Shown here: positions 1 through 5,094 of the stretch, piece after piece | How positions within the stretch are numbered: the stretch's first letter is position 1 | Layout: every line of letters begins with the position of its first letter | Assembly: GCA_902515765.1 (NCBI GenBank) | Contig: CABXVZ010000005.1 | Coordinates: forward strand, 1-64,000 | Direction: 5' to 3' | Length of the DNA stretch: 64,000 bases | Source: an uncultured Alphaproteobacteria bacterium | GTDB lineage: Bacteria; Pseudomonadota; Alphaproteobacteria; HIMB59 | Program-made: the position numbers and the translations under genes | Notes under the pieces: model-generated | What the model was told of the DNA's origin: nothing | Database searches by the model: none | Seen by the model: the letters and a program-made list of their open reading frames with translations, nothing else

Positions 1-1368
1 TGTGTTTCTAAAGTATATCCCACAAGAAGTCATACTGTTGCTGCCCAGGGTGGTATCGGTGCTGCTTTAGCTAATATGGGCGAAGACAGTTGGCAATGGC
101 ATATGTATGACACTGTCAAAGGCTCAGATTGGTTAGGCGATCAAGATAGTATTGAATATTTATGTTCTAATGCTGTTGATTCCATTGTTGAGTTAGAGCA
201 TTACGGAATGCCTTTCTCTAGAACTGAAGATGGTAAAATTTATCAAAGACCTTTTGGTGGGCATATGACTAAAAATGGAAAAGGCGCCCCTGCCAGCAGA
301 GCGTGCGCTGCAGCAGATAGAACAGGCCATGCCCTTCTTCATACACTTTACCAACAAAGTCTTAAAAATAACGTTGATTTTTATAACGAATATTTTGCAG
401 TTGATCTTCTAAAGGATAATAATGACACTATTTGTGGTCTTTTGGCCATTAACGTTGAAGACGGAACCTTACACCGCTTCATTGCAAAAATGACTATCTT
501 GGCTACTGGAGGTTATGGAAGAATATTTCAATCCTCTACCAGTGCACATATATGTACTGGTGATGGTGCAGGTATTGCCCTAAGAGCAGGCCTACCCTTG
601 TCAGATATGGAATTTATTCAATTTCACCCTACTGGTATTTACGGAGTAGGTGTTTTAATTTCAGAGGCTGCAAGGGGAGAAGGTGGAGTTTTAAAAAATA
701 ATGAAGGAACAAGATTTATGTTAGAGTATGCCCCAAATGCAAAAGACCTTGCTGCAAGAGATGTCATTTCAAGGTTCATCAGCAAAGAGATTAGTGCAGG
801 TAGAGGATGTGGGCCAAACAAAGATTATATCAACCTTCACCTAGAGCATCTAGATGCAGACATGCTTGCAAAAAGACTTCCAGGTATTTCTGAGTCAGTG
901 AAAGCATTCTGTGGCAGAGATGTCTCTAAAGAACCAATCCCAGTAATACCAACTGTTCATTATTGTATGGGAGGAATTCCAACTAATTTCAAGGCTGAAG
1001 TTTTAAAACCTACTGACTCAAACTCAGAGGAAATATGTGAAGGCATAATGGCAATTGGTGAAACAGCATGCGCTTCAGTTCATGGAGCTAACCGACTGGG
1101 CACCAATGCTCTTGCTGAACTTGTAGTTTTTGGTAGAGGAGCTGCAATACAAACGGGACAAGTTATAGACCAAAATGAATCTCTCAGAATGCCCTCCCAA
1201 GCTCATACAAATTTAGTTATCGAAAGACTTCAAGCTATTAAAAGCAATAAGGGAGATATATCTGTAGGAGAGCTTCGAGAAAAAATGCAAAAGACAGTTC
1301 AAAAAAGATTTGGAGTTTATAGAGAAAGTGAAGCTTTCATTAAAAAATTATCCATGAGAAGATGGTAG
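1..1368 (+). CDS. sdhA: Succinate dehydrogenase flavoprotein subunit, 5' end outside window and 3' end truncated
   Basis: Reading frame 1 is open from base 1 ([27 protein letters not shown]...) into the listed ORF. SdhA motifs: [41 protein letters not shown]. Stops about 140 aa short of usual SdhA length. Confidence 0.93.
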
Positions 1369-1705: not shown

Positions 1706-1868
1706 TTTTTCTAAATATAGACAAATAAATTTTATAGTAAAAACTTATTATTTTATTAATTCATGCGTCTTATGAATAAGTAGGATTGTGGAAAAATTGT
1801 TAATTAAATGTCAATTTTCTTTGATTTTTGAATCATCAATTGAATTTAAAGTGTTTATTATTGAATTT

Positions 1869-1957
1869 GGTCGTCTATTGAAGCTTTGGTTTCTTGGGCG
1901 CTGGGTCTCACCCCGCATGAGAAAACTTTATTTTTTAATGAAGTTGGCGCCCCGACC
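1869..1957 (+). ncRNA. Unassigned multi-stem structured RNA candidate upstream of dctQM
   Basis: GGTCG(1869-1873)/CGACC(1953-1957); GGGCGC(1896-1901)/GCGCCC(1947-1952); GGGT/ACCC or alternative TCTCA/TGAGA; AACTTTAT(1924-1931)/ATGAAGTT(1938-1945). GC-rich island in an AT-rich intergenic region. Confidence 0.5.
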
Positions 1958-2005: not shown

Positions 2006-2545
2006 ATGTCAGTATTAGCCCAAATATCAAGAGTTATTGATAAAGTAAATTCCTACATAGGCAATCTTTGTGCAATTTTTGCTTTTTCAATGGTAATTGT
2101 CGTCTTCACTGTTGTGGTTTTGAGGTATGGATTCAATATTGGTTTTATCTGGATGCAAGAGGTTTATGTTTGGCTACATAGTTTTGTATTTATGCTAGGT
2201 GCAGGATTTACCTATTTAGCTAATGAGCATGTTCGCATAGATGTGTTTTACCGCGATGCTTCAAAAAAATATAAAGCAACAGTTGATTTGCTTGGTAACG
2301 TGATATTGCTATTACCTTTTCTTTATATTATATGGAAATATAGTTATCCTTTTGTTTATCGATCATTTTTAATGGGAGAAGTCTCTAGGGAAGCGGGAGG
2401 CATGCCTGCCTTATTTGTACTTAAAAGTGCCATACTTTGGTTTTGTTTAGTTTTATTTCTCCAAGTTATTTCGAATATATGTAAATCTTTGTTAACCTTA
2501 TCTAATACCTCGTCTCCTTTAATATCAGAAAATAGAAATAAATGA
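2006..2545 (+). CDS. TRAP transporter small permease subunit (DctQ family)
   Basis: Four hydrophobic segments, GFIWMQEVYVWLHSFVFMLGAGFTY; followed by a DctM homologue with 4-nt overlap. Confidence 0.9.
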   Translation: MSVLAQISRVIDKVNSYIGNLCAIFAFSMVIVVFTVVVLRYGFNIGFIWMQEVYVWLHSFVFMLGAGFTYLANEHVRIDVFYRDASKKYKATVDLLGNVILLLPFLYIIWKYSYPFVYRSFLMGEVSREAGGMPALFVLKSAILWFCLVLFLQVISNICKSLLTLSNTSSPLISENRNK

Positions 2546-3918
2546 TAACTCCTGAAATCCTTTCTATCATAATGTTTTTGACTACTTTAGGGTTATTGCT
2601 TTTTGGTTTTCCAGTTGCCTTCACTCTCGCTGGCTCCGCTCTTATATTTGGATTTCTAGGTGATGCCCTAGAAGTATTTAATTTTAGAATGATTGGATTT
2701 TTTCCCCAAAGAATATTTGGAACAATGATCAACGAGCCTTTGGTGGCTGTTCCTTTGTTTATCTTTATGGGAATAATGCTTGAAAAAACCAAAATTGCAG
2801 CTGGACTATTACAATCAATTGGCGAGCTTTTTGGATCTACTAAAGGAGGACTTGGTATTGGCGTTGTGATAGTTGGTATGTTGCTAGCGGCCTCTACTGG
2901 GATTGTGGGAGCTACCGTTGTGACTATGGGAATGTTGTCTTTACCTTCAATGATGAAGGCAGGCTATGACCAAAAAATTGCTACAGGTACAATTTGTGCA
3001 GCTGGAACCCTAGGCCAAATAATACCTCCTTCAATTGTTCTTGTTTTATTAGCAACAATTTTACAGGGCGCTAATGAGGAGGCTGCGATGCTTGTTGGTA
3101 ATCTTGCCCCTGAGCCTGTTACTGCAATTGATTTATTTGCAGGTGCTCTTTTACCTGGGCTGCTTTTAGTTGTTTTATTTATCATTTTTATTTATTTTTA
3201 TGCCCGTATAAATCCAAGTTCTTGTCCTCCAGTTGAGACCAATAAATCAAGAGGTGAGATATATTTGGAAGCTGCAAAATCAATTATTCCTCCCCTTACT
3301 TTAATTGTACTGGTATTAGGTTCGATATTATTTGGTGTGGCCACACCTACTGAGTCTGCATCAGTGGGGGCAGTGGGAGCAGCAATTATTGCCCTGATGA
3401 AAGGGGAGTTAAATTATAAAAATTTAAAAGAAACTGCATTAGGAACTGTGAAGTTAAGTTCTTTTGTTTTTGTTATCCTCATAGGAGCCTCAATGTTTTC
3501 ATTAGTATTTCGTGGCTTTGGAGGTGATGAGATGATTGAGCATTTTCTTGGAGGTCTACCTGGCGGTCTTTATGGTGCCTTAATAGTAGTCATGTTAGTA
3601 ATATTTCTTTTAGGATTTTTTCTTGATTATATAGAAATAATATTTGTAATAGTTCCCTTAGTTGGTCCAATTTTAATAGCTAATGGAGCTGATCCTTTGT
3701 GGTTAGGAATTTTAATTTCTTTAAATCTTCAGACTAGCTTCCTAACTCCTCCTTTTGGTTTTTCACTTTTCTTTTTGAGGGGTGTAGCACCAGATGAAAT
3801 CCAAACTCGAAATATGTATAAAGGAGTTATTCCTTTTATAGGAATTCAAATATTAGCAATTTTCATAGTTGGTTTTTTTCCAGAGATTGCTACCTGGTTG
3901 CCAGATAAAATGTTTTAA
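2542..3918 (+). CDS. TRAP transporter large permease subunit (DctM family)
   Basis: Polytopic; GIVGATVVTMGMLSLPSMMKAGYDQKIATGTICAAGTLGQIIPPSI is typical of DctM. Confidence 0.94.
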   Translation: MITPEILSIIMFLTTLGLLLFGFPVAFTLAGSALIFGFLGDALEVFNFRMIGFFPQRIFGTMINEPLVAVPLFIFMGIMLEKTKIAAGLLQSIGELFGSTKGGLGIGVVIVGMLLAASTGIVGATVVTMGMLSLPSMMKAGYDQKIATGTICAAGTLGQIIPPSIVLVLLATILQGANEEAAMLVGNLAPEPVTAIDLFAGALLPGLLLVVLFIIFIYFYARINPSSCPPVETNKSRGEIYLEAAKSIIPPLTLIVLVLGSILFGVATPTESASVGAVGAAIIALMKGELNYKNLKETALGTVKLSSFVFVILIGASMFSLVFRGFGGDEMIEHFLGGLPGGLYGALIVVMLVIFLLGFFLDYIEIIFVIVPLVGPILIANGADPLWLGILISLNLQTSFLTPPFGFSLFFLRGVAPDEIQTRNMYKGVIPFIGIQILAIFIVGFFPEIATWLPDKMF

Positions 3919-3966: not shown

Positions 3967-5094
3967 TTAAGAAGAAGGATACGCAAATGGTAGACTTCTA
4001 ACTCTCATGTACTCTCTTTCAGAAGTGTTAGTCCATCTAAGAATAGTAGATCTAAACTCAACAATATGAGAGAAGAGTTCCTGAGATATGGAATCTTCAG
4101 ATGCGATTGAACTACAAACTTCACCCGCTCTTTGGCCAAGCGCATTCATAACTTCATCTGGTAATTGTCTCATTTGAACGCCATGCTCATTAATCAGCTT
4201 TTGATAAGCACTGTCATTTATAGCTTGGAACATTGATAATACTTCCATGTTTACCGCCTTTGAAGCAACAGTAATTAGTTCTTTAGTTGCGTCATCCAGC
4301 TTCTCCCATTCAAACATATCGATTGAACAGTCAAGAATAGTTGCTGGTTCGTGCCAACCTGGGTTATAGTAATATTTAGCAGCTTGATGTAAGCCTTTAC
4401 CTAAATCTGCGGCTGGGCCAATCCACTCAGTAGCATCAATAGCGCCTGAAGCAAGAGATGGTAGAACGTCAGCACCGGCTAATAGAACAGTATTTGCACC
4501 AAAAGATTTTAATACTTCTCCACCAAGTCCCGGCATTCTAATTTTTAAGCCATCAAAATCAGAGATAGCGTTTATTTCTTTATTAAACCATCCCCCCATT
4601 TGATTACCAGTGTTACCCATTGGTAGGAATTTAACACCAATAGAATTATAAGCTTTATCCGCTGCCTCAATACCTCCACCATAGTAACACCATGCATTTT
4701 GCTCTTGAGCAGTTAAACCAAAAGGTAGTGCTGCAGAAAAAGATGGGGCCATACTGATGTTTGTCCAGTAGTAACCTGCACCATAAGCCATTTGAGCTGC
4801 ACCTGATCTAACTGCATCAAGAGACTCAAGGGGTGGAACAAGTTCACCTCCATGATAAACTGTTATCTTTAATTTATCAGATTGATTATTAACGTAGCTA
4901 GCAAATCTATCTATTGCCTTACCTAGTCCACTTGCTTTACCAAACGCAGAGCAGGCAATCCATTCCATATGCCCACCAGATATAGCTGGAGCAGGAAATG
5001 ATGAAACCGCTGCGGCACCCAGTGCTGCAGCACTAGCGCCTTTCAGGAAGCTTCTTCTTTTCATAGGCTTGCTATTCTTTATCTTTTTAGCCAT
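3967..5094 (-). CDS. TRAP transporter substrate-binding protein, TakP-like (2-oxo acid type), Tat-type signal
   Basis: Tat-like N-terminus RRSFLKGASAAALG; DFDGLKIRMPGLGGEVLKSFGANTVLL; ASGAIDATEWIGP. Confidence 0.9.
   Translation of the reverse strand: MAKKIKNSKPMKRRSFLKGASAAALGAAAVSSFPAPAISGGHMEWIACSAFGKASGLGKAIDRFASYVNNQSDKLKITVYHGGELVPPLESLDAVRSGAAQMAYGAGYYWTNISMAPSFSAALPFGLTAQEQNAWCYYGGGIEAADKAYNSIGVKFLPMGNTGNQMGGWFNKEINAISDFDGLKIRMPGLGGEVLKSFGANTVLLAGADVLPSLASGAIDATEWIGPAADLGKGLHQAAKYYYNPGWHEPATILDCSIDMFEWEKLDDATKELITVASKAVNMEVLSMFQAINDSAYQKLINEHGVQMRQLPDEVMNALGQRAGEVCSSIASEDSISQELFSHIVEFRSTILRWTNTSEREYMRVRSLPFAYPSS

Follow-up and report, generated by a model that had tools for sequence, protein, structure and literature searches.

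The window, that is, the whole stretch of 64,000 nucleotides that was analysed, is part of an AT-rich, alphaproteobacterial contig whose source genome is 64% complete, and the relatives of its dctQ gene include those in HIMB59 and in uncultured single cells labelled Pelagibacteraceae. A structured RNA sits in the divergent gap of ~300 nt between sdhC and dctQ, the latter being the first gene 3' of it. The genes and features of this region are as follows, in window coordinates.

1705-1340, minus strand: sdhC (Pfam)
1786-1794, minus strand: DnaA-box-like TTTTCCACA, in a conserved block upstream of the RNA (block identity 0.87)
1856-1861, plus strand: -10-like hexamer TATTAT, 7 nt upstream of the G that opens P1 (ten non-redundant flanks)
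1869-1957, plus strand: structured RNA, 89 nt (model R1 matches 42 of 52 genus genomes, once each)
1869-1873, plus strand: 5' arm of P1, GGTCG, pairing with 1953-1957 (99% of cells paired)
1880-1893, plus strand: hairpin A, GAAGC-TTTG-GTTTC, a variable arm inside P1 (lower conservation, 0.48)
1896-1902, plus strand: 5' arm of P3, GGGCGCT, pairing with 1946-1952 (5 of 11 compensatory events)
1906-1922, plus strand: hairpin B, TCTCA-CCCCGCA-TGAGA, the near-invariant core (core block identity 0.97)
1924-1945, plus strand: hairpin C, 1924-1932 pairing with 1937-1945 (3 compensatory events; 87-91% of cells paired)
1946-1952, plus strand: 3' arm of P3, GGCGCCC (covariation)
1953-1957, plus strand: 3' arm of P1, CGACC, contiguous with the 3' arm of P3
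1992-1997, plus strand: -10-like TATAAT, 8 nt upstream of the dctQ start codon, an ATG at 2006 (block identity 0.91, against 0.55 in the preceding spacer)
2006-2545, plus strand: dctQ, TRAP small permease (Pfam DctQ, 5.8e-16)
2542-3918, plus strand: dctM (Pfam)
3967-5094, minus strand: dctP (Pfam)

At the edge of the contig an sdhA fragment (window 1-1337), which is joined to sdhC/sdhD and lacks its start, runs in the orientation opposite to that of all relatives, and the junction at ~1336 looks like a chimera from amplification or assembly. Two more conserved blocks, ATTATTTTATTAATTCATGC and TGTGGAAAAATTGTT, occupy the interval between sdhC and the RNA (window 1743-1802); the former is near the presumed sdhC promoter and the latter holds the DnaA-box-like site on the opposite strand. 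That site prompted consideration of a replication origin, an idea that was rejected: in the complete genome the GC-skew minimum falls at ~290 kb and the RNA at 246.5 kb, and a cluster of such boxes is absent from the locus.

The RNA consists of two helices, P1 and P3, and three hairpins, of which B and C are enclosed by P3. Its core pairings are GGGCGC 1896-1901 with GCGCCC 1947-1952 in P3, TCTCA 1906-1910 with TGAGA 1918-1922 in hairpin B, and GAAGC 1880-1884 with GTTTC 1889-1893 in hairpin A. The fold of the window sequence has z = -3.1 against shuffles on the plus strand and z = -1.9 on the minus strand, and it is more than a product of chance, as judged by these values and above all by conservation and covariation in relatives. 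A sequence-only reading of this DNA had named P1, P3 with their contiguous 3' arms, hairpin C, and two mutually exclusive small hairpins, all of which are present where it placed them; its list of elements was incomplete in that hairpin A was missed. The two small hairpins (GGGT 1903-1906 with ACCC 1910-1913, and TCTCA with TGAGA) are of nearly equal energy in the window, -30.1 versus -29.8 kcal/mol, but they do not form a conserved switch: only TCTCA/TGAGA is conserved, and the GGGT of its rival is private to the window, with GAAT, GAAC or TAT in its place in all relatives.

The elements upstream of dctQ in relatives were gathered by DNA and protein searches, and an alignment of 22 distinct sequences (A2) was scored against the structure. 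In this alignment 90.1% of cells pair, versus 36-46% when the partners are slid by 1-3 columns, and double changes occur at 10 pairs, in 29 cells, versus 13.2 in shuffles and at most 19 when slid; the result holds when divergent members are included. When the changes are placed on a tree built from the adjacent dctQ genes, we reconstruct 11 both-sided compensatory events, two in P1, five in P3, three in hairpin C and one in hairpin A, so that the compensatory changes proposed earlier as a check in homologues do exist. Double changes in P1 can be seen in one relative (L063), where CG is replaced by UA and GC by AU, and one clade has a P1 of 7 bp and a P3 of 5 bp in place of 5 and 7, with the stack of 12 bp kept. 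Hairpin B is nearly unchanged, and its pairing therefore rests on constancy and not on covariation; it is retained even where hairpins A and C have been rewritten. The pair U1929-G1940 is indeed a G-U pair on the plus strand, as had been pointed out, and the preference for that strand is borne out among relatives by 34 G-U cells versus 10 A-C cells, an excess that makes the plus strand the likely RNA strand.

A divergent subtype is found at three loci (L110, 5668-5798; L111, 5889-6015; L112, 485-614), in which hairpin A is enlarged to ~60 nt with covarying base stems, hairpin C is rewritten, and P1, P3 and the core of hairpin B are kept. The -10-like hexamer before the RNA is less clearly placed in these three, and the TATAAT-like box before dctQ is retained, at a longer distance in two of them. 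In the enlarged hairpin A there is also a second loop that is conserved, AAGYGCAACCTT; a GGCAC located 3' of hairpin B could compete for P3.

Of the 52 genus genomes, 42 carry the RNA, each in a single copy as detected with model R1. The 15-mer at the core of hairpin B, CTCACCCCGCATGAG, occurs once per genome in an equal number, with a single mismatch in one. In G030, whose genome is complete, the RNA occurs exactly once. The ten genomes without the RNA also lack the dctQ ortholog and an intact sdhC, except G007, whose contig starts 34 nt before dctQ, so that the region is missing from these ten through assembly gaps and not through true loss. Beyond the genus, no credible relatives were found in 385 alphaproteobacteria (models R1 and R2) or, with R2, among 399 genomes of the phylum. 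The weak matches that were inspected most closely fall within protein genes or on the strand opposite them, namely a primase-like gene (G038), an xthA-type exonuclease gene (L116), a kup-type gene in antisense (L256) and a small gene adjoining mutS (L255), and their E-values are those that chance predicts for that many genomes. Viral contigs yielded 31 exact matches to the core 15-mer; the few inspected are coding DNA, and the full fold is convincing in none. In the sister family, dctQM is accompanied by a convergent dctP but lies close behind parC, and the RNA is absent; a suspected recoded TGA in its dctQ proved to be the ordinary stop of that gene before dctM.

The earlier proposal that this is a multi-helix RNA of no known class is supported by conservation and covariation in relatives and by the search of Rfam that it had suggested. 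At gathering score, tRNAs alone match Rfam 15 in the whole window; positions 1700-2050 match no family at E<=10, and for the elements of L111 and L052 there are chance-level matches only, far below gathering. No description of the RNA was found in the open-licence literature searched. It is well supported that the structured RNA is real, previously uncatalogued, restricted to one genus and new as a family.

We favour the reading of this genus-restricted element as a small RNA of ~90 nt with its own promoter, which we consider the most likely of the explanations at hand while holding it with about as much doubt as conviction. The apparent promoter is suggested, on sequence evidence, by the -10-like hexamer at its fixed spacing: at the 7-nt offset the hexamer averages 4.7 of 6 matches, at any other offset 3.6 at most, and none of 20,000 shuffles was as good. 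The second TATAAT, whose presence before dctQ had been remarked on, stands ~8 nt ahead of the ATG in all main-type genomes; with ordinary promoter geometry, transcription of dctQ would then begin on or beside the ATG, implying a leaderless mRNA. The possibility of a leaderless dctQ and a separate RNA, raised at first as a caveat, is now the favoured one. Sequence conservation, structure, strand, single copy and position are established for the RNA, and its transcription and start site we infer. Under this reading the RNA would be transcribed from its own promoter, with a first nucleotide that opens P1, the stem that closes the molecule, and with a separate 3' end. P1 and P3 would stack end to end, giving ~12 bp in total and displaying hairpin B, whose exposed, near-invariant CCCCGCA loop is probably the working part and may bind a protein or another RNA. 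The dctQM genes would be read mainly from the second promoter just downstream. A U-rich tail follows P1 in some species, and there is no conserved intrinsic terminator; lacking a canonical terminator after P1, the transcript may continue into dctQ. It counts against a small RNA that the element is always beside dctQ and was never found elsewhere, an adjacency that is hard to weigh because the whole locus is syntenic in the genus. When base-pairing targets in G030 were sought by a crude search for duplexes, the outcome was no better than that of the reversed-sequence control.

The principal alternative, which we rate as somewhat less probable but a serious competitor, is a cis-acting leader, either an orphan riboswitch or a protein-binding leader that would control dctQM and perhaps sense the carried substrate. 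The RNA is on the same strand as dctQ and 47-54 nt upstream of it at all 117 loci (many of them redundant), it has no copies elsewhere, and like an aptamer it is compact, multi-helical and invariant in its core. Furthermore, the nearest solved relatives of the dctP product include 2hzk (TakP, a 2-keto-acid protein), 7ug8 and 2zzv, binding proteins of the 2-keto-acid/lactate type, so that 2-keto acids or lactate would be the first candidate ligands of a leader. A conserved TATAAT, however, intervenes between the RNA and dctQ, the neighbourhood is syntenic throughout the genus, which makes adjacency weak evidence, and the sister family retains dctQM without the RNA. Of what is expected of a riboswitch, the conserved aptamer-like fold was found and an expression platform through which it could control the gene that follows was not: between the RNA and dctQ there was no conserved terminator, Shine-Dalgarno masking or conserved alternative pairing, and a terminator-like hairpin at 1943-1956 of the window is lost in L071, L072, L110 and L111. 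It is this lack of a platform that favours a separate small RNA over a leader, and a separately started RNA also fits better because its own ends close P1, whereas a riboswitch would have to act across the intervening promoter.

The locus could also be read as chiefly double-stranded regulatory DNA, with operator half-sites CTCA-N7-TGAG and promoters, in which the RNA fold would be a by-product. The CTCA and TGAG half-sites form an inverted repeat with just one wobble change across its four inner pairs, and promoter-like elements flank it; yet the compensation seen in P1, P3 and hairpin C far exceeds that in slid controls, the G-U excess is on one strand, and the non-palindromic loop is conserved to the same degree, so that this reading is strongly disfavoured and in our estimate very improbable. 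That the conserved feature is a short upstream ORF from the ATG inside hairpin B (CATGAGAAA) is scarcely credible and was rejected, for although the ATG is invariant and MRK-type peptides are encodable in several species, the frame changes between species, length and peptide vary as well, and all three frames are represented among the distances that separate the ATG from the end of P1.

In its compact covarying helices, its restriction to a lineage and its place before a single gene of a small, AT-rich genome, the RNA resembles the orphan structured RNAs of streamlined marine alphaproteobacteria (the rpsL motif and the pntA and SAR11_0636 elements; PMC2704228), but host group, sequence, architecture and gene all differ, there is no Rfam match, and a text search of that paper for a dct or TRAP motif found none. 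With multi-helix-junction riboswitch aptamers it shares helical junctions, an invariant core and a location close upstream of a transporter gene; unlike riboswitch aptamers in general, it has no expression platform that we could find and has a conserved promoter-like element before the gene. Its apparent own promoter, compact closed fold and single copy are reminiscent of bacterial trans-acting small RNAs and of 6S RNA, although, unlike the former, it has no terminator or target that could be found. Identity with 6S RNA was rejected, as the 89-nt branched fold lacks the long bulged 6S hairpin and the element has no Rfam match. The Rfam 6S model (RF00013) had no match in G030, G017 or G018, three near-complete genomes of the genus, which may have no 6S RNA or one that has diverged too far.

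As a tentative extension that we think doubtful at present, the RNA would represent a new class of regulatory RNAs that act in trans or are bound by protein, with the CCCCGCA hairpin as fixed recognition element or, if it acts in cis, a new class of riboswitch for an acid carried by the TRAP transporter. In either case, an RNA family absent from Rfam 15 is found in an abundant marine group that is related to HIMB59 and has small genomes with little space for non-coding sequence. That each genome has kept a single copy, its core almost unaltered, implies that the RNA has a real function. Given its anatomy (a putative start, the stems, the core loop and a candidate partner gene), the question of small RNA versus riboswitch is directly testable.
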